Assembly: GCF_000949255.1 (NCBI RefSeq)
Contig: NZ_JXUW01000026.1
Coordinates: 1-44,995, forward strand
Source of the DNA: Ferrimicrobium acidiphilum DSM 19497
GTDB lineage: Bacteria > Actinomycetota > Acidimicrobiia > Acidimicrobiales > Acidimicrobiaceae
Length of the DNA stretch: 44,995 nt
Direction: 5' to 3'
Part shown: piece by piece, positions 31,797-44,995 of the stretch
How positions within the stretch are numbered: the first letter of the stretch is position 1
Layout: the number at the start of each line of letters is the position of its first letter
Notes under the pieces: generated by a model
The model's database searches: none
Seen by the model: only the letters and a program-made list of their open reading frames with translations
What the model was told of the DNA's origin: nothing
Translations under genes and position numbers: made by a program

Positions 31797-33316
31797 GGGG
31801 TTCTCCCTGGTGTCTTACTTATTGGGTTAGTTGGTTCGGGTTACGAACCAAGTGCGCTAGAGATATGCGTTGTCACCGGGGTAACCGTAGCTAGCAGTGA
31901 CCAGTCAGGCTTACCAGCGCTAAGGAGTACTCGAATGCGAAAGTTCGCAAAGTTCGTCATCCCAAAGGCGATGCGCTTGATCCGCTTAATGAGGTTGTTC
32001 ATCGACTCTGTCGGTCCATTGGTCACAAAGGACCTATGCCAGGCCAGGATCTCATCATGCCAGCTTTTCAAGGTTCTCCCAAGTAGCTGGACCTCGGGTG
32101 GTCGTTGGTTATCGGTGAAGTCACTGATAAGGGCATCGAGGTGGTCTCTGGCGAGATCTGGGTCACGATAGGTATAGAGCTCTCGTAGGGACTCCTTGAC
32201 TCTCCAGCTGGTAGCTACCTCGTTGTCTGGGTCACCTAGTTCAAGTAGGTGAGTAAGTTTGGCGTTGGCACCCTCGGTAAGTTTCTCCTTGGCCATATTC
32301 AGGAGTCGCCGGATGCGATAGAGCGGATCCCCGCCTCTGCCTCTGTGACCAAGGATGTTCTGTTGTACTCGTCTTCTCGTCTCATCAAGACGAGTGTTGG
32401 CGAGCTTTATGAGGTGAAATGGATCGGCCACCAGGACAGCATTGGGTAACGCCTCTTTAAATACCGCTCTATAGGAACCAGCCAGGTCAAGGGTTCCCCA
32501 CTTGATATCATCACGCCACTCCCTGGAGTGACTAGCTATCCACTTCTTTGGCTCCGCTCCTCCTTTACCAGGAACTACATCGAGAAGGGTTGCGCTCATA
32601 ACGTCCACGATTGAGGTAGACCACTTCTGGTTGTGATAGCGACCCTCGCGATAGAACAGGGTCTCATCTAATCCAAGTGCACGAACCTTGCCAAAGCGAT
32701 TTGGATCCTCAACGAGGGGAGTCCCGTAGGCAATCACAGCATCATTGATCGTGTGCCAGTCACAATCGAGTTCTCTGGCTACCGATGACACCGATCGCCC
32801 GTCTCTACCAACCACTCGGGTTGCGAATCTAGCTGCCCTATCGGTGAGCTTTAGCCTTGGGGCTGCGATCCTAGTGTCCACATCGCTCCATGACGGGGCG
32901 ATGCAGGTCTCATCCTTGCACACCCACCTGCGTTTGTGCCAGATGAGCCTTACGGGACGGCCAAAGCTTTGTAGATCAATCAGCTCTACTAGTGAGCCTC
33001 CCTTGGAATAACTCATCCCATTACAGACTGGGCATTTTGGCCGCTCGCCTCGACACTCGATATGGACCCGAAGGGGTGTCTTTGAATCTTCGTTACCCAG
33101 ATCCTCGACACCAATCAAATTGACATCCTTTAGACCGAGCAAGATCTCTGCAATGCGGATAGGATTTTGTTCCACAGGGGTCCTCCAGTGATGAGTTGTT
33201 ACTAATCCCATTCTGGCAGAGCCCCTGTGACCCTCCCAAACTCACCCCTAGTGCGTGGCTATACCCGACTAATTTCCCCACTTAAATCCGAAGTCCCAGT
33301 AACAGGGAAGCTCCTT
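31797..33316. mobile_element. ISL3-family insertion sequence, provisional boundaries
   Basis: The element holds the intact transposase. Candidate ends are GGGTTCTCCCTGGTGT at the left and GGAGCTTCCCTGTTACT read inward from the right. They share the CCCTG core and a few more bases, so the pairing is weak. No target duplication could be established. Boundaries may shift by tens of bases. Confidence 0.45.
31841..33175 (-). CDS. ISL3-family transposase, intact
   Basis: 444 residues. The N-terminal zinc ribbon is CPVCNG plus CKDETCIAPSW, followed by a helix-turn-helix (SVSSVARELDCDWHTINDAV) and a DDE domain with ALGLDETLF, ADPFHLIKLAN and NGPTESMNNLIKRIKR. Length and motif spacing are normal, so it is probably functional. 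I place the start at GTG 33173-33175 because GGAGG lies six bases upstream; the earlier ATG at 33211 has no such site. It differs in sequence from the ISL3 fragment at the left edge of the window, so two ISL3 types are present. Confidence 0.9.
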   Translation of the reverse strand: MEQNPIRIAEILLGLKDVNLIGVEDLGNEDSKTPLRVHIECRGERPKCPVCNGMSYSKGGSLVELIDLQSFGRPVRLIWHKRRWVCKDETCIAPSWSDVDTRIAAPRLKLTDRAARFATRVVGRDGRSVSSVARELDCDWHTINDAVIAYGTPLVEDPNRFGKVRALGLDETLFYREGRYHNQKWSTSIVDVMSATLLDVVPGKGGAEPKKWIASHSREWRDDIKWGTLDLAGSYRAVFKEALPNAVLVADPFHLIKLANTRLDETRRRVQQNILGHRGRGGDPLYRIRRLLNMAKEKLTEGANAKLTHLLELGDPDNEVATSWRVKESLRELYTYRDPDLARDHLDALISDFTDNQRPPEVQLLGRTLKSWHDEILAWHRSFVTNGPTESMNNLIKRIKRIAFGMTNFANFRIRVLLSAGKPDWSLLATVTPVTTHISSALGS

Positions 33317-38528: not shown

Positions 38529-38831
38529 TCCTCCATCGCAGTCATTCCCAGTCTACGTTAGGAGATCTTCCTCGTCCCAGCAGACCGGCGCTACTTCTCC
38601 ACCACCCATTCGCGACTGACATATTGCGTTCACGTTTCCGTGAAAAACCGCGCCCGCAGCCACCGGTTAAACACGCTCTGCAACATCCAAGACGACATGA
38701 TCCAGCTTGGCTCGACGTTAATTCTGGCAACCTTGGAGAGGTGTCGCTAGCCGTCGACGAGTCCACGCTTTGGCTTTGGCAGCATCTGCCAACCCAAGCC
38801 ACGTTCTCCACACCCGTTGACGTGCCCTAAG
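38529..38831. other. Unassigned region left of the IS1380 copy
   Basis: About 300 bases between the oxidoreductase and IS1380 copy 1. A plus-strand frame ending at 38830 (ESTLWLWQHLPTQATF... TAA) lacks a start signal and matches nothing that I know. No Rep N-terminus is visible here, so the missing part of the rep gene is not directly left of the element. Confidence 0.4.
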
Positions 38832-40463
38832 CCTGAATCTACCGACGCACCCCGGTGTCGGGGCGTGGCGGTGGCCCTTGGGCTGTGATTTCGTTCCGTT
38901 GATTTAACCCGGGGTTCTGGATCGGTTCTGACCCAGAGTTAGGCGTGGTGGGTTAAGGATCTGATTTGGTGTTTCATTTGTGGGGCGCATGGAGAGTGTT
39001 GCCCGACCGCGCTTTCGAGTCGGAGGTAGTTCCCTAGATGGGAACCGGTTCGAGTGCCCTAAGGGTGATGAGTGCTCTTATGAAGGCCTTGGCCCATGGC
39101 CAACGAGCCGGAGTACGCAGTATCATCTTTCCCGATCGGTTGACGAGTCGTCCGACAAGCGAGATGAAGTGGTTACGAAAGCTACGAGCTATGACCATGG
39201 ATTCTCGAGGGGTAATGGTACCAAGGTAGCTCACCTGACGGGTGAGGTTATGGGCAAGGACCGCATGGGCTAGCCATGCTCCATTGGCATGAAACTTACC
39301 AGAGGGGATATGTTCTAGTCCTGCCCCCTCTTTGAGATCTTTGATGGAGAGTTCAATCCGTGCTCGGTTCCGATGGAACTGATCCACCTCAACAGCTGAA
39401 CCTTCCAAGTCAGTAACAAACCCGAAGTATCTCCAGTTAGGAAAGAGCTCTGCCTGGTCACCAATGAGGCGGGTACGACGGATAATGAGACGTCTGCCCT
39501 TATAGGTGGTCTCGGCTACTTGGGCCTCACCGTTCTCGGTGTAGTCAATAGCTACCCAGGAGTCCTTACTGATCTCCTCTACCAGCGACTTTATCCCCTT
39601 GGCGTTTGCACGAACCGCCATGGTGTAAGAGATGCCTAGACGTTCTAACTCCTTCAAGGTCGCATCTGATTGATACCCAGAGTCAAAGCGGATGGTGATC
39701 TTGCCTGTTGCACCGATGCGTCGACACCTAGCGATGAGTTCTTGAACAAAGCGTTTGGTTCCCCGTTGTGTATTGGCTGAACCCTTTCGCATTCGACAAT
39801 GAAGTACCTCACCAGTGTCAGAGCGAACCGCGAGTATGGGGTGATAGCCCAACTTCTTGGTATAGCCATAGGCTGCTCCCTGCTTGTGATACCCAGATAC
39901 CTCACAGATAGTAGAGTCGATGTCGATGACGAGGGGATCGTCTCCCGGGGCCATCCCAAAGGACCAAGCCTTTGCAAGCTCTGCCTCAATCACCTCATCT
40001 AATTGACGAACGTGACATGAGGTAAAGGAGCGCAGATAAGTACCAAGGGTTGAGGGAGCTACTACCCGAAAGGGAAGCAGCTTCGAAGATGACCCGGCTC
40101 TCAACATATCTATATGGTCGATGTGAGAGGCTCCCGCCACCATCGCATGAATGAGGGTCAATGACTTACTCGCCGGATTGGCTCCACCCACTCGACCGGT
40201 GAGATCGACCCGCTCGGAGATGAGAGCATCTAGACCAAGCTTGGAAGCAAGCGTGGAGACTAGAAGGAGTCCCGCATTGGCGACCAGATTCTCGTCGTCA
40301 AAGGCAACCTCGATAGCCTCTGGCGTGTGGTAAGATTGTGTCACAGAAAGTGTTCTCCTTGGTTGGTCGTTTTGGCTGCTTTCTAACTTCCATTCTACCA
40401 GCTCAGGGGGCACTTTCTTCAGTTTTGGGGGACCAATTCTCCGGGTGCGTCGGTGGTTCTAGG
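38832..40463 (-). mobile_element. IS1380-family element, copy 1 (complete)
   Basis: A 1,632-base element bounded by imperfect terminal inverted repeats: CCTGAATCTACCGACGCACC at 38832-38851 and, read inward from 40463, CCTAGAACCACCGACGCACC. Both then continue with C-G-rich bases. Flanking bases are CTAAG on the left and CTCAG on the right, which do not form a perfect target duplication. The right edge cuts into the rep gene. A second copy begins exactly 5,045 bases to the right in the same orientation, with one difference seen in the left repeat (T at 38840, C at 43885). Confidence 0.85.
39034..40344 (-). CDS. IS1380-family transposase
   Basis: 436 residues from the GTG at 40342-40344 (VTQSYHTPEAIEV), preceded by AAGGAG about 13 bases upstream; the open frame reaches 40413. 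DDE-type motifs: VIDIDSTICEVSG (first Asp), IRFDSGYQSDATL (second Asp) and HRNRARIELSIKDLKEG (Glu with the following basic residues), in the order and spacing of IS1380 transposases. The protein encoded by the second copy is identical over the visible 272 residues and beyond, which suggests very recent duplication or recombination. Confidence 0.92.
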   Translation of the reverse strand: MTQSYHTPEAIEVAFDDENLVANAGLLLVSTLASKLGLDALISERVDLTGRVGGANPASKSLTLIHAMVAGASHIDHIDMLRAGSSSKLLPFRVVAPSTLGTYLRSFTSCHVRQLDEVIEAELAKAWSFGMAPGDDPLVIDIDSTICEVSGYHKQGAAYGYTKKLGYHPILAVRSDTGEVLHCRMRKGSANTQRGTKRFVQELIARCRRIGATGKITIRFDSGYQSDATLKELERLGISYTMAVRANAKGIKSLVEEISKDSWVAIDYTENGEAQVAETTYKGRRLIIRRTRLIGDQAELFPNWRYFGFVTDLEGSAVEVDQFHRNRARIELSIKDLKEGAGLEHIPSGKFHANGAWLAHAVLAHNLTRQVSYLGTITPRESMVIARSFRNHFISLVGRLVNRSGKMILRTPARWPWAKAFIRALITLRALEPVPI

Positions 40464-40630
40464 CTCAGAGGTAGACCTGTGGTGGTCGGATAAGCCCACC
40501 CAAAGCGACACCCTGTGGCCCAACACAATCACCATATCTCCCGCCTTCCGCGATTCGATCAAGGTGTCGTCCGTACCGCTCGACACTCGTGGCTTAGCGC
40601 TTGTCCAGCAAGCTAAGGCAGGCCCGCTAG
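40464..40630 (+). pseudogene. RepA-type replication initiator, internal fragment (5' part lost)
   Basis: Reading directly out of the IS1380 end gives GSEVDLWWSDKPTQSDTLWP, then NTITISPAFRDSIKVSSVPL and DTRGLALVQQAKAGPL. This corresponds to the middle of plasmid RepA-type initiators, where 'LWxxxITLSxxFxxxxxxxxVPLDxRaLxxLxxSPLALDxYxWL' is the pattern I know from the family. The 5' end of the gene has been removed by IS1380 copy 1. The fragment ends at the CTAG where the IS1182 element is inserted and continues at 42433. It is not translatable as a full protein. Confidence 0.82.
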
Positions 40631-42432
40631 GAGCGTGGGTCTGAATCACCTTCCAGATCCGGTGGTGGGGCCCTAAAATTTGCCAAAATTGGGATTGTGG
40701 TCTTGAGTTCTCGGTTTCGGTTCTCAATTGGGGTCAATGATCCCAAGTCGGGCCGATTCGCTGCGCTCTAGGCCATCGCCAACCCTGCATTCACTCTTGC
40801 ATTGGAGAGCTTTCGTAAGTTATGACAGATTGAGTGCAGCGTCCACTCAGTCTCGGCTCCTTGTAGTCCTCGAAGGCGTAGGTGGCCCGCTTTCTGTCTA
40901 ACTTTCATCTGTCCAAATACTGGTTCGACGATAGCTTTGCGTCTTGCATAGTCGATGCGTCCAGACTTGGTTCGAAGGCGACGGGCCATGCGCTCTCTTC
41001 GCGTTGCGTTCTTTGGGATCCGCCCGCGTGGAGAATCACTCACGCATTCATTGTGCTTCATGCGTCCGGTTGCGACGAGAGCGTTGATGTCGAACTTGGT
41101 GATGTGGCCAAGGTTGGCCTCCGAGCAGTAGCCAGCATCAGCTAGGTAGACCCGTGGGGAACGGGTGATGTTGGCTGCTTTGAGACTTGTCGTAGTCGCC
41201 TCAATCATAGGGATGAGTTCGTTGACGTCTGTGGCGGCTTGGGTTACCTTGGTTGTAACGATCACCTGAGAGCCCTCATCCACCACTGCCTGGGCGTTGT
41301 AGGCGAACTGGAACCCATCGTTAGTCTTCATCATCCGAGAATCGGGATCAGTGAAGCTGCGTTGGGCCTTTGGGTTTGGTCGTATTGGGGTTTGTGTAGC
41401 ATCAGTATCGGTGCTGGCTGGGCTAACGGTTTCGGTAGTGGCCTTGGTTGAGCCGGCGACCTTCGCATCATCATCAACAACAGTGGTCTCTGTCTTGGCA
41501 ACGGTGTTGGTTGGGGCCTGCTTGTTGAGCTCTGCCTTCTTGCTGGTCGTGGCCTTGGTGTGCCTATCGGCCTTAACACGGGCCTCAGCCTCGATAGCCT
41601 CCTTTGCTTGGCGCATCTTGGCGATCCGGGTCTCGCGACGACGAAGCTCCTCTGGGATCTCATCACCTCGCTTGTCAACCCCATAGGCCTCATCCTCGGC
41701 TGAGTCGGTAGCTTCAGCCTCAGCGAGCATCGTAGCTACCTGGGCCTCGATCTCTTCGATCCTCGGTCCAAGACGTTCATAACTCATGGACTTACGCCTA
41801 GACGCTCGGGCTCGAAGCTTAGTCCCATCGAGGGCAACCCTACCAAGGGTAACGAGTCCTGCCTCACAACAGAGAACCAGTACCTGGCCAAAGAGATCAC
41901 CAAGTGCGGCCTCGTGGCGACGACGGAACCGAGCCAGGGAGCGATAGTCAGGAGTCGTGTTGGCACTGAGCCATCGAAAGGCGATATCAACGCAGCATCT
42001 CCTCTCCATCTCTCTTGAGGAAGTCACTCCAGTCGAGTAGGCATAGAGGAGAAGCTTTAACATCATTGCCGGGTCATAGGGTGGTGCACCAGAGGCCTCG
42101 GCATAAGAGTCATAGATATCAGAGAGATCCAAGAGCTCATCGACAACCTCTGAGATGAAACGTGCAGTGTGATCATCTGGAAGCCAGTCATCAAGGGAGG
42201 GAGGCATGAGGAGCATCTGGTCTTGGTCATAGGAGCGGAAGGTCTTGGTAGAACGAATCCGAGTTTTGCCCCGAGGGACTAGCTGTTCCTGAGTCGGTAC
42301 CATAGTGACATCATCGCAGCTCATAGCCACTATTTTAGCATAAGATGACCCATAAGTCCAGCTCAAACGCCATAATTGGGATCCGAATTGCATTCCCTAA
42401 CATGATCAAAGAAGGGATTCTGACCCACGCTC
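40631..42432 (-). mobile_element. IS1182-family element inserted in rep with CTAG duplication
   Basis: A 1,802-base element. The left end reads GAGCGTGGGTCTGAATCACC and the right end, read inward, GAGCGTGGGTCAGAATCCCT, an inverted repeat with three mismatches in 20. CTAG occurs immediately outside both ends (40627-40630 and 42433-42436), a 4-base target duplication. Removing the element and one CTAG reconnects the rep reading frame without change. It contains one complete transposase gene. Confidence 0.92.
40768..42324 (-). CDS. IS1182-family transposase
   Basis: About 518 residues from the ATG at 42322-42324; the frame is open to 42393. The N-terminal helix-turn-helix and CSTG-type region (FRSYDQDQMLLMPPSLDDWL, YSTGVTSSREMERRC, FRWLSANTTPDYRSLARFRR) and DDE residues in VALDGTKLRA, LADAGYCSE and AIVEPVFGQMK identify the family. 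Between the first two acidic residues lies a low-complexity stretch of about 100 residues rich in Ala, Thr, Lys and Glu (EARVKADRHTKATT to VSPASTDTDATQ). TATGCTAAAAT upstream of the start may be part of a promoter. Confidence 0.92.
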   Translation of the reverse strand: MSCDDVTMVPTQEQLVPRGKTRIRSTKTFRSYDQDQMLLMPPSLDDWLPDDHTARFISEVVDELLDLSDIYDSYAEASGAPPYDPAMMLKLLLYAYSTGVTSSREMERRCCVDIAFRWLSANTTPDYRSLARFRRRHEAALGDLFGQVLVLCCEAGLVTLGRVALDGTKLRARASRRKSMSYERLGPRIEEIEAQVATMLAEAEATDSAEDEAYGVDKRGDEIPEELRRRETRIAKMRQAKEAIEAEARVKADRHTKATTSKKAELNKQAPTNTVAKTETTVVDDDAKVAGSTKATTETVSPASTDTDATQTPIRPNPKAQRSFTDPDSRMMKTNDGFQFAYNAQAVVDEGSQVIVTTKVTQAATDVNELIPMIEATTTSLKAANITRSPRVYLADAGYCSEANLGHITKFDINALVATGRMKHNECVSDSPRGRIPKNATRRERMARRLRTKSGRIDYARRKAIVEPVFGQMKVRQKAGHLRLRGLQGAETEWTLHSICHNLRKLSNARVNAGLAMA

Positions 42433-42690
42433 CTAGCCCTAGATCTTTATACCTGGCTCGCGCATCGATTTTACTCTATCCGCCGCACTACAACGGTTCC
42501 GTGGATCTTACTCTCTGAACAGTTTGGATCGCAGTACGGTCGTGTGCGAAACTTCAAGGCCAATGTCATCAAGGCACTCCCAGTCGTGCACCTCGCCTAC
42601 CCCGAGGCCAACGTCTCGCCGTCCGCAGGCGGTTTGGTTCTAAAGCCTTCGCCTTTACCAGTTACCAGAAAGATCGTGCTCGACGCATGA
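42433..42690 (+). pseudogene. RepA-type replication initiator, C-terminal fragment
   Basis: Continues the fragment at 40464-40630 after the IS1182 element: LALDLYTWLARASIFYSIRR, TTTVPWILLSEQFGSQYGRV, RNFKANVIKALPVVHLAYPE and ANVSPSAGGLVLKPSPLPVT, ending with TGA at 42688-42690. The pattern 'SPLALDxYxWLxxR...IpWxxLxxqFGxxYxrxRdFkxxFxxALxxVxxvYPeAxvxxxxxGLxLxPSPpPV' is that of the RepA_C-type plasmid initiators as I remember them. The frame is open to 42424, inside the IS. It should bind the iterons 40 to 140 bases downstream in the intact plasmid. Confidence 0.88.
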
Positions 42691-42694
42691 CAAG

Positions 42695-42921
42695 TTGTCC
42701 ACCGATGGGCTGTGTGAAACACAGTTATCCACGCATACGAACTAGCGCCCCAGTAAGTTTGCCAAAAACCTACACAAATCCCAGCTCAGGGCACGCATAC
42801 GAACTAGCGCCCCGTGCGCATACGAACTAGCGCCTGTCCCTGTGTTCTCCCAGCTCACAGCGCACAAATCGCGACCGCCTATATATCTACTCCTATTGGT
42901 TTTAAAAACCTAGTATTAGGT
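42695..42921 (+). other. Candidate iteron plasmid replication origin (oriV)
   Basis: Immediately after the rep stop codon come two DnaA-box-like sites, TTGTCCACC (42695-42703) and TTATCCACG (42725-42733, one mismatch from the E. coli consensus). Three iterons follow (42732-42834), then an AT-rich tract ending in CTATATATCTACTCC and TTTTAAAAACC (about 42880-42915). DnaA boxes, Rep iterons and an AT-rich unwinding region in this order, next to rep, are the hallmarks of theta-type iteron origins. Function here is doubtful because rep is broken. Confidence 0.75.
42732..42834 (+). repeat. Three direct iterons CGCATACGAACTAGCGCC(CC)
   Basis: Perfect 20-base copies at 42732-42751 and 42794-42813, and an 18-base copy at 42817-42834. 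The last two are spaced 23 bases start to start (about two helical turns); the first is 62 bases upstream. Further short repeats CCCAGCTCA (42780-42788 and 42849-42857) and CACAAATC (42773 and 42863) lie among them. They are the presumed binding sites of the neighbouring RepA-type initiator. Confidence 0.85.
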
Positions 42922-43015
42922 AGCCGAACTTGTTGAAAACTGTCTCCCCGCTCGCTACGCTCACGCTGCCGCCGCAAGGCTACGCCTTGCGTTATCCTGG
43001 CAAGGATGGTAGGTC

Positions 43016-43037
43016 AATCATGATAACCGGGAATCAT
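43016..43037 (+). repeat. 22-base direct repeat, copy A (left of toxin-antitoxin operon)
   Basis: AATCATGATAACCGGGAATC followed by AT. It matches 43841-43862 in 20 of 22 positions, same orientation. Each copy contains ATGAx(n)ATCAT inverted arms around CCGG. The pair brackets the toxin-antitoxin genes. Confidence 0.6.
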
Positions 43038-43366
43038 TCGAATATCGGGATTAGCCTCGCCAACACTTCGTCCATAACTAGCGCTGGTACACTTTCCAGC
43101 CTGCGGGCATTGCGGGCTCCTAAATCGATCGCACGTGGCTGATCGCAGCGGATTACGCCGGTGGTTTTCGTGCCCGCTTCCTGGAGCGACACGGCAAACC
43201 CCGCAGTCCTGGCAAAGTTACCTCCGGTGGTGATCGGCAACACGATAGGAGTCCGCGTCAGCCGATTAAACGCGGTCGCCGACACCACCAGTACTGGACG
43301 CGTGCCTTGCTGTTCGTGCCCCGATGTCGGGTTAAGCGACACGAGGTAGATATCGCCACGCTCCAC
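43034..43366 (-). CDS. ChpB/MazF-type mRNA interferase toxin
   Basis: 110 residues, PemK/MazF fold, a ribosome-independent mRNA endonuclease. The start MERGDIYLVSLNPTSGHEQQ, then RPVLVVSATAFNR (family RPxLVVS), ITTGGNFARTAGFAVSL and VIRCDQPRAIDLGARNARRL match ChpB closely. The conserved Arg and Thr catalytic pair is plausibly R22 with T in LPITTGG. The GTG start overlaps the antitoxin stop by one base (TAGTG). It is typical plasmid-addiction cargo. Confidence 0.92.
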   Translation of the reverse strand: MERGDIYLVSLNPTSGHEQQGTRPVLVVSATAFNRLTRTPIVLPITTGGNFARTAGFAVSLQEAGTKTTGVIRCDQPRAIDLGARNARRLESVPALVMDEVLARLIPIFE

Positions 43367-43623
43367 TAAAGCAACTCATTGCCGACAGGTTTTGCATCGA
43401 GCCATTCCCGGTCTTGCTGAGATAGTTCATGTGACATATCACATTGGGCCAGTAGGTCGCCTAAGGTGTAGTGCGCTCGTGGTGCTGGCTCTATTACCAT
43501 CCGCCCGTTATCTACTCCAATTCCGACCGTCGCACCAGCGTGTAGGTGCAGCAAATCGAGAATAGCAGGAGGAACGGCCAGCATGACTGAGCCTCCAACC
43601 CTGCGAAGATTTGTCGTGTGCAT
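43366..43623 (-). CDS. ChpS/MazE-type antitoxin (AbrB-like)
   Basis: 85 residues. The N-terminal AbrB/MazE swapped-hairpin DNA-binding domain (LRRVGGSVMLAVPPAILDLLHLHAGATV) is followed by a disordered toxin-binding tail with the YTLGDLLAQCDMSHELSQQDREWL element, nearly identical in pattern to E. coli ChpS. It neutralises the toxin and should repress the operon. GGAGGTG lies four bases before the ATG. Confidence 0.9.
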   Translation of the reverse strand: MHTTNLRRVGGSVMLAVPPAILDLLHLHAGATVGIGVDNGRMVIEPAPRAHYTLGDLLAQCDMSHELSQQDREWLDAKPVGNELL

Positions 43624-43876
43624 TACGCACCTCCATTGAATTAGTTATATACAAGTATAACACCTGGCAACCCTATCGCTCCGCCTTTTTTTGATCCGAT
43701 ACAGTTTTGCCAGTTCATCACGCAATTTCTCGCGAGGCTCACCCCCCCCCCGCTCGTCGCCAGCCCTCACACGATCCAAAACACTCGGCACAGTTAGCGC
43801 ATTGCAGCTCTGGCAAAGAACACAAGCAGCCCGGCCATGAAATCATGAAAACCGGAAATCATGATTCTCTACTAAA
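43624..43876. other. Spacer between toxin-antitoxin operon and IS1380 copy 2
   Basis: No gene is supported. It holds a T-run after GGAG-rich sequence, a run of about ten C (near 43742-43751) and copy B of the 22-base repeat (AATCATGAAAACCGGAAATC then AT, 43841-43862). No Rep N-terminus is readable next to the IS1380 end. Confidence 0.5.
43628..43670 (-). promoter_or_regulatory. Promoter and palindromic operator of the toxin-antitoxin operon
   Basis: On the minus strand TTGCCA (43670-43665) is followed after 15 bases by TATAAC, with TAACTA two bases further as the alternative at spacing 17. A palindrome GTTATA(6)TATAAC covers 43644-43661, overlapping the -10 region. GGAGGTG (43634-43628) is the ribosome binding site. 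An AbrB-type antitoxin bound to the palindrome would block the promoter; autoregulation is inferred. Confidence 0.6.
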
Positions 43877-44995
43877 CCTGAATCCACCGACGCACCCCGG
43901 TGTCGGGGCGTGGCGGTGGCCCTTGGGCTGTGATTTCGTTCCGTTGATTTAACCCGGGGTTCTGGATCGGTTCTGACCCAGAGTTAGGCGTGGTGGGTTA
44001 AGGATCTGATTTGGTGTTTCATTTGTGGGGCGCATGGAGAGTGTTGCCCGACCGCGCTTTCGAGTCGGAGGTAGTTCCCTAGATGGGAACCGGTTCGAGT
44101 GCCCTAAGGGTGATGAGTGCTCTTATGAAGGCCTTGGCCCATGGCCAACGAGCCGGAGTACGCAGTATCATCTTTCCCGATCGGTTGACGAGTCGTCCGA
44201 CAAGCGAGATGAAGTGGTTACGAAAGCTACGAGCTATGACCATGGATTCTCGAGGGGTAATGGTACCAAGGTAGCTCACCTGACGGGTGAGGTTATGGGC
44301 AAGGACCGCATGGGCTAGCCATGCTCCATTGGCATGAAACTTACCAGAGGGGATATGTTCTAGTCCTGCCCCCTCTTTGAGATCTTTGATGGAGAGTTCA
44401 ATCCGTGCTCGGTTCCGATGGAACTGATCCACCTCAACAGCTGAACCTTCCAAGTCAGTAACAAACCCGAAGTATCTCCAGTTAGGAAAGAGCTCTGCCT
44501 GGTCACCAATGAGGCGGGTACGACGGATAATGAGACGTCTGCCCTTATAGGTGGTCTCGGCTACTTGGGCCTCACCGTTCTCGGTGTAGTCAATAGCTAC
44601 CCAGGAGTCCTTACTGATCTCCTCTACCAGCGACTTTATCCCCTTGGCGTTTGCACGAACCGCCATGGTGTAAGAGATGCCTAGACGTTCTAACTCCTTC
44701 AAGGTCGCATCTGATTGATACCCAGAGTCAAAGCGGATGGTGATCTTGCCTGTTGCACCGATGCGTCGACACCTAGCGATGAGTTCTTGAACAAAGCGTT
44801 TGGTTCCCCGTTGTGTATTGGCTGAACCCTTTCGCATTCGACAATGAAGTACCTCACCAGTGTCAGAGCGAACCGCGAGTATGGGGTGATAGCCCAACTT
44901 CTTGGTATAGCCATAGGCTGCTCCCTGCTTGTGATACCCAGATACCTCACAGATAGTAGAGTCGATGTCGATGACGAGGGGATCGTCTCCCGGGG
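43877..44995 (-). mobile_element. IS1380-family element, copy 2 (runs off the right edge)
   Basis: It repeats copy 1 with an exact offset of 5,045 bases from 43877 to the end of the window. The only difference noticed is at 43885 (C against T). The left inverted repeat is CCTGAATCCACCGACGCACC. Left flanking bases are CTAAA. The right inverted repeat and its flank lie outside the window. Confidence 0.9.
44079..44995 (-). CDS. IS1380-family transposase, copy 2, 5' part outside the window
   Basis: The last 305 or so codons of the transposase, identical in translation to copy 1, including IRFDSGYQSDATL and HRNRARIELSIKDLKEG. The start and the first Asp motif lie beyond the right edge. A second Met inside (44897) is not the real start. 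Confidence 0.92.
   Translation of the reverse strand, partial: PGDDPLVIDIDSTICEVSGYHKQGAAYGYTKKLGYHPILAVRSDTGEVLHCRMRKGSANTQRGTKRFVQELIARCRRIGATGKITIRFDSGYQSDATLKELERLGISYTMAVRANAKGIKSLVEEISKDSWVAIDYTENGEAQVAETTYKGRRLIIRRTRLIGDQAELFPNWRYFGFVTDLEGSAVEVDQFHRNRARIELSIKDLKEGAGLEHIPSGKFHANGAWLAHAVLAHNLTRQVSYLGTITPRESMVIARSFRNHFISLVGRLVNRSGKMILRTPARWPWAKAFIRALITLRALEPVPI

Follow-up and report, generated by a model that had tools for sequence, protein, structure and literature searches.

A probable chromosomal relic of an iteron plasmid origin with a broken RepA_C-type initiator gene in Ferrimicrobium acidiphilum

Contig C26 of the Ferrimicrobium acidiphilum DSM 19497 draft assembly (68 contigs, 3,088,654 base pairs, bp) was analysed over its whole length of 44,995 bp and is called the window here. 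Close to its right end, three identical direct repeats follow the remains of a plasmid rep gene. In all probability they are the origin (oriV) of an old iteron plasmid that replicated by the theta mode under a RepA_C-type initiator, now a relic in the chromosome. The origin looks real and the replicon dead. Its kind is known, that of the widespread RepA_C iteron plasmid family; this member is new and was found dead in a chromosome. The host is an iron-oxidising acidophile. The genome of F. acidiphilum T23T has been reported as 68 contigs, 3.08 Mb and 55.3% G+C (PMC4417700). The open-access literature searched gave no description of a plasmid origin of Acidimicrobiia; for Ferrimicrobium together with plasmids, replication or mobile elements it gave only work on topoisomerases.

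A preliminary description, made from the letters of the sequence, had placed three iterons, two DnaA-box-like sites and an AT-rich tract after the rep stop codon. All of them are present at 42688-42923, and the three iterons are exact copies of CGCATACGAACTAGCGCC (Table 1). The window holds 3 matches to the iteron at ≤3 mismatches against 0.03 expected, and none of 100 shuffles reached 3. The same description would have been contradicted by an iteron scattered over the genome; the iteron is no such repeat, as the genome has three exact matches, all at the origin, and two further matches at 3 mismatches. At ≤1 mismatch the iteron is absent from the other 41 family genomes searched. The region has the at least three direct repeats of ~17-23 bp beside rep that characterize an iteron-type oriV and, as judged by consensus matches, a DnaA box and an AT-rich tract with them.

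Table 1 Features of the origin and its surroundings in the window; C10 and C4 are other contigs of the same assembly.
Feature	Position	Strand	Remarks
DnaA-box-like TTGTCCAC	42695-42702	+	weakly conserved; consensus match
DnaA-box-like TTATCCAC	42725-42732	+	runs into iteron 1, offset 7
Iteron 1, exact CGCATACGAACTAGCGCC	42732-42749	+	18 bp
Iteron 2, exact CGCATACGAACTAGCGCC	42794-42811	+	18 bp
Iteron 3, exact CGCATACGAACTAGCGCC	42817-42834	+	18 bp
AT-rich tract, presumed DNA unwinding element	42880-42923		partly aligned in G024 and C4
Hairpin CGCAAGGC-tac-GCCTTGCG	42973-42991		short, adjoins origin; found in C4 too
repA middle piece	40464-40630	+	149 plasmid records match
repA C-terminal piece	42433-42690	+	stop TGA 42688-42690; no internal stops or frameshifts
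Outer flank CTAA, left	38827-38830		partner CTAA at C10 1798-1801, past right end of second IS1380 copy
IS1380-type copy A	38831-40463	-	transposase open reading frame (ORF) 39034-40413; DDE_Tnp_1_4
IS1380-type copy B	43876-44995	-	cut by contig end; continues as C10:165-1797
IS1182-like element	40631-42432	-	transposase ORF 40768-42393; DUF772, DDE_Tnp_1; 22-bp inverted repeat
MazF/PemK-type toxin gene	43034-43366	-	PF02452, E value 1.2e-29
MazE-like antitoxin gene	43366-43623	-	PF04014, E value 0.0002; 21.7 bits, below curated cut-off 24.7

The second box shares one base with iteron 1 and is kept in the closest related origin (genome G024, below) as well as in a second relic on contig C4; the first box is weak, its counterpart in G024 being TTGCCCAC. 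Around the host's own dnaA gene, exact copies of TTATCCAC are confined to the inside or the edge of the dnaA frame, which gives no sign of this exact form serving as a host DnaA box. The likely chromosomal oriC lies on contig C16 (L097), with three TT[AGT]TNCACA-type sites right after dnaA. The AT-rich tract is 73% AT, a richness reached by 0.004% of the contig's 44-bp stretches. Its limits are those of the richest of 12 offsets tried; the richest 44 bp lying fully inside 42695-42921 are 70% AT.

The preliminary description did not recognize the iteron, and indeed the origin DNA finds no match by DNA similarity in plasmid and phage collections. A search of viral contigs with a 16-mer of the iteron gave one single-copy match (L047), with no repeat in the surrounding 500 bases, and was judged chance. 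Rfam returned nothing for the origin at gathering scores.

Both pieces of the rep gene are free of stops. The C-terminal one, of 84 residues, matches RepA in 819 plasmid records, every one below 60% identity; as DNA it matches no plasmid. The closest intact RepA is encoded by a metagenome-assembled genome (MAG) from the window's order, LSA5.bin8 (contig JAJZKA010000027.1, genome G658), and matches PF04796 (RepA_C). Over the two rep pieces it shares 66% and 68% identity with the window. Used as a query against the assembly, its residues 185-251 match 40435-40635 at 58% identity and residues 248-332 match 42430-42684 at 66%. Nothing beyond these two pieces was matched in the assembly at E ≤ 1, and residues 1-184 were not found. 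The part not found amounts to the N-terminal ~184 of ~333 codons, over half of the gene. An IS1182-like insertion sequence (IS) of 1,802 bp splits what remains, with a CTAG target duplication at 40627-40630 and 42433-42436. Sequence similarity to plasmid records (819 and 149 for the two pieces) and to the LSA5.bin8 protein places the gene in RepA_C. With its N-terminal part unfound and the rest split, it is not a complete translatable gene, and the window therefore holds the remnant of a RepA_C member. Rather than a working origin of this genome it appears to be a chromosomal relic, as no intact RepA of this family was found anywhere in the assembly.

All 13 full-length relatives gathered from RepA matches of the C-terminal or the middle piece (7 + 6; L060, L091 and L092 were left out) match PF04796. 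In a tree of 17 rows and 82 columns, the RepA of the window pairs with that of LSA5.bin8 (96/96), while 8 of the 14 inner branches are open. Relatives of the initiator are widespread in Proteobacteria. RepA matches are uncommon nearer to the host: they occur in 6 of 395 genomes of the class with the window piece as query, and in 10 of 397 genomes of the order by profile search, the host's own included in each count.

A model of the LSA5.bin8 RepA has low confidence (mean predicted local distance difference test, pLDDT, of 54), with residues 251-320 at 77-93. Its best structural matches include RepE54 (Z 5.6-6.8) and RctB (Z 6.7 and 6.2), which are middling values; in that ranking, Z values of up to 5.7 also fall to winged-helix regulators that are unrelated. 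RctB binds origin repeats. The likeness to RepE of mini-F, for which an initiator-iteron complex has been solved, is seen only through this low-confidence model. Foldseek found no match to it at E ≤ 0.001, and the PDB sequence search with the related RepA of genome G320 found none at E ≤ 1.

A search of 42 family genomes with the origin DNA gave two matches in the host's own genome (C26 and C4) and one, at 69%, in G024, which belongs to another genus of the family. There the origin is collinear (contig C72, L042 4456-5560): TTATCCAC precedes three iterons whose spacing of 62 and 23 bp is identical to that of the window. The G024 iterons read CGCACACGAGGTGAC, CGTACACGAGGTGAC and CGCATACTAGGTGAC against CGCATACGAACTAGCGCC in the window, differing in the right half; the second and third have drifted to 94% and 76% of the first. 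The rep gene of G024 has decayed too, with one stop in the match and shifted frames read by eye. A hairpin also stands at the corresponding place in G024, but with other bases paired. In folding, the window DNA at 42930-43010 does not surpass its shuffles, of which 23 in 200 did as well (z -1.2), and three sequences are too few to look for covariation in the hairpin.

Further cases come from the window's family or order. Three CGCATAAACGGTAATG iterons in 22-bp steps lie beside repA in G014, where the RepA match is split over two frames; G320 has three CGCATAAACGCTTACGC-like iterons, also in 22-bp steps, beside an open frame of 309 residues; and G494 has three CGCATAAACGCCGAG iterons in steps of 35 and 22 bp, again beside an open repA frame. 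The left part CGCATA is common to these origins, with small changes in G024. The right part varies from one origin to another, and copies inside one origin are mostly alike. On the minus strand of G494 contig C48 (L052), a DnaA-like box runs into the first CGCATAAACGCCGAG iteron ≤25 bp after the open RepA frame, and an AT-rich stretch is present too, which makes this locus a candidate intact relative.

Iteron-like repeats occur downstream of RepA homologues at 13 of 23 loci, the window included, so the proposed tie between this anatomy and rep holds in many relatives. The stretch read was 1.2 kb per locus, but shorter in G387 (504 bp) and a Methylococcaceae MAG (760 bp); three RepA loci were not used for origins, namely G454 (contig edge), G095 (27 aligned positions, one stop) and G509 (33 aligned positions). 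Together with the collinear G024 origin, these repeats show a layout conserved in part of the relatives. In 7 of the 13 iteron-bearing origins, a TTATCC[AC]C box begins exactly 7 nucleotides before one iteron, a count whose iteron strings were picked after the repeats had been seen. The junction is present in the window, G024, LSA5.bin8, G494, pLAtc2, the Methylococcaceae MAG and Paracraurococcus, and absent from G320, G014, Nitrosospira, G203, Altericroceibacterium and G291, the last having three iterons at its RepA locus. Its recurrence suggests that DnaA and RepA may meet there.

Two RepA_C iteron plasmids are close parallels. In pLAtc2 of Acidithiobacillus caldus, the gene of a RepA homologue is followed by iterons at steps of 24, 33 and 24 bp and then by AT-rich DNA; a DnaA-like box leads into one iteron here too, with the same offset of 7. 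pNRS527-2 of Nitrosospira has a RepA homologue, downstream iterons with several 21-27 bp steps and AT-rich DNA beyond, but lacks the box-iteron junction. Both differ from the window in iteron sequence and host phylum; in the window, moreover, rep is broken and the origin chromosomal. Nearer to the host, the LSA5.bin8 contig (L059 1286-4300) carries four 18-bp iterons, a TTATCCCC box running into one of them and a ParA-like gene beside RepA; unlike in the window, the iteron is CGCCTAGGAGGTCGCACC and lies ~0.9 kb after repA, with another ORF between. Judged by its sequence alone, this contig is the locus most likely to represent the subtype as an intact replicon.

Other likenesses are more partial. 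Among the PromA and IncW plasmids (pMRAD02, pSFA231, R388), pMRAD02 shares the RepA family PF04796, but no repeats were found within 1.2 kb of its repA. Putative iterons, a DnaA site and an AT-rich region have been described for pSFA231 in PMC4290620; a distance of 5.1 kb separates its oriV-like region from repA, unlike in the window. PMC4290620 also states a link of PromA to IncW. For pSN1216-29, the full set of repA, iterons, DnaA box and AT-rich region is reported to replicate in Escherichia coli, while constructs without the AT-rich region, alone or with the iterons, did not (PMC6232296). The RepA of pSN1216-29 is PF10134 (RPA) and not RepA_C, so it resembles the window in layout only.

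By analogy with the RepA_C family, RepA would have bound the three iterons in the plasmid and DnaA the box running into iteron 1, whereupon the AT-rich tract, ~45 bp beyond iteron 3, would have been opened. One IS1380-type copy sits at a CTCA site in rep and the second beyond the mazEF pair; the unit that they bound lies at a chromosomal site with CTAA on its two outer sides and would have moved as a composite transposon. The IS1182-like element divides the remaining rep. Lacking RepA, the origin would probably be unable to start replication by itself.

Several observations support a single insertion of the whole IS-to-IS unit into the chromosome. The sequences that flank copy A on the left and copy B on the right are neighbours in all five sister genomes tested (G016-G020), the left flank is also present in G015, and the empty site of G020 is alignable across the junction, though the identity is moderate. 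Copy A is flanked by CTAA on the left and CTCA on the right (40464-40467, inside rep); copy B by CTAA on the left (43872-43875) and CTAA on the right, read on C10. We take these elements to be IS1380-type from their Pfam domain, ends and 4-bp flanks. Copy B is completed only through C10: over 1,285 bases the end of C26 agrees at 98% with the start of C10, and the first 726 of these bases differ at 2 positions; past them, C26 resembles copy A, which could be an artefact of draft assembly. The arrangement resembles a composite transposon, having two copies of one IS around a segment, and the outer CTAA pair and the G020 site agree with this. They are weakened as evidence by the target preference of the IS and by copy B's own CTAA/CTAA flanks. 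Since the IS favours CTAA-like targets, the outer pair is a weak proof of composite transposition; nor is there an independent sign that the unit moved, because no second copy of the whole origin-mazEF segment exists in 7 genomes of the genus. An ISL3-family transposase gene lies elsewhere in the window (31841-33211).

This same target preference keeps a second route in contention, in which homologous recombination between IS1380 copies brought the plasmid in as a cointegrate that was then reduced by deletion between copies. The genome offers 12 full or partial IS1380 matches, both window copies included, as partners; the unlike flanks of copy A are typical of recombinant copies, and copy B with C10 has the matching flanks that a simple insertion would have. 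A plain cointegrate, however, predicts equal inner flanks, and these are CTCA and CTAA, whereas the outer flanks do match and join at a site that is empty in G020. We consider such recombination the less likely route, though a serious one, and prefer composite transposition.

Some points weigh against a chromosomal RepA_C relic brought in as one unit. The PF04796 model matches neither rep fragment of the window, so that membership in RepA_C rests on pairwise matches. Iterons near repA are not universal, as 10 of the 23 loci had none in the stretch read: G387, pMRAD02, C. gilardii, pTM2, C. oxalaticus, Micrococcus, a Xanthobacteraceae MAG, Lichenicola, G469 and G655. G469 and G655 lack them within 1.2 kb of repA; not counted as iterons were weak 15-bp repeats within an annotated gene of C. 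gilardii, a 36-bp tandem at the Micrococcus locus and a 60-bp tandem at the Lichenicola locus. The absent RepA could lie in a gap, the assembly being a draft of 68 contigs. The join of C26 to C10 is supported by the overlap of the contig ends and by synteny rather than by reads. Of the two junctions tried, that of G020 aligns with only moderate identity and shows no CTAA, and that of G018 could not be aligned. Finally, the inner flank of copy B is also CTAA, and the targets of the other IS copies are mostly YTWA, with CTCA and CCAA among them.

The host genome contains another relic of this origin, on contig C4 (L031 12578-12795), in a more advanced state of decay: 202 bp are 80% identical to window 42824-43013, and a box and a single degenerate iteron stand before them. 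The relic sits between inverted 58-bp copies of an apparent IS end. Its flanks are ~164 bp apart in G020; in G018 and G019 the distance is ~2.3-2.5 kb and includes unmatched DNA. A different toxin-antitoxin-like pair adjoins it, with one member MazE-like below the curated cut-off and the other without a Pfam match; homology of this pair to mazEF is unconvincing (28% over 46 residues, E 0.005, in one comparison and no alignment in another). In the window, both frames of mazEF (43034-43623) are open beside the dead origin. Inverted palindromic motifs of the AATCATGAT type flank the pair at 43016-43037 and 43845-43866, with a similar motif in the C4 relic; they are possibly operators.

Two relics of one origin in a single genome, and perfect iterons beside a broken rep, would fit a domesticated plasmid barrier. 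Here the rep-less iterons would still bind, titrating or handcuffing, the RepA of incoming related plasmids, so lowering their copy number or excluding them, while mazEF would blunt the effect of their addiction genes. If so, selection would favour capturing this origin more than once in a single genome. Recent insertion explains the absence of decay equally well, and the rep pieces are stop-free too. The C4 relic has kept a single degenerate iteron, and iterons 2 and 3 of G024 have drifted; no plasmid or phage record matched the origin, and the sole match of the iteron core in viral contigs is single-copy. We regard a barrier as improbable.

A live plasmid or megaplasmid, with the origin in use, is a still less probable reading of the contig. 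The origin parts are intact, the iterons identical and a toxin-antitoxin pair adjoins them, but both sides show chromosomal synteny in sister genomes, the window carries three tRNA genes, and rep is split and short of its N-terminal part with no substitute from its family found in the assembly. Neither chance nor an ordinary repeat dispersed through the genome explains the iterons: both are refuted by the iteron counts in genome, family and shuffles and by the conserved G024 layout, with nothing found in their favour.

The preliminary description also suggested a replicon type of this actinobacterial lineage, which stands in a narrower form. At ≤1 mismatch the iteron occurs in 1 of 42 family genomes, the host's own, the closest related origin differs in the right half, and relatives of the initiator are widespread in Proteobacteria; what holds is the pairing of the window and LSA5.bin8 initiators and an origin backbone common with G024. 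Since much of the iteron's left half persists among neighbouring origins and the right halves change largely in concert, these origins make the co-evolution of initiator and iteron testable. The shared junction of DnaA box and iteron suggests a site touched by both proteins. Taken with the G024 origin and the LSA5.bin8 and G494 loci, the relic provides a RepA/iteron set with which a cloning vector for these bacteria may be attempted.
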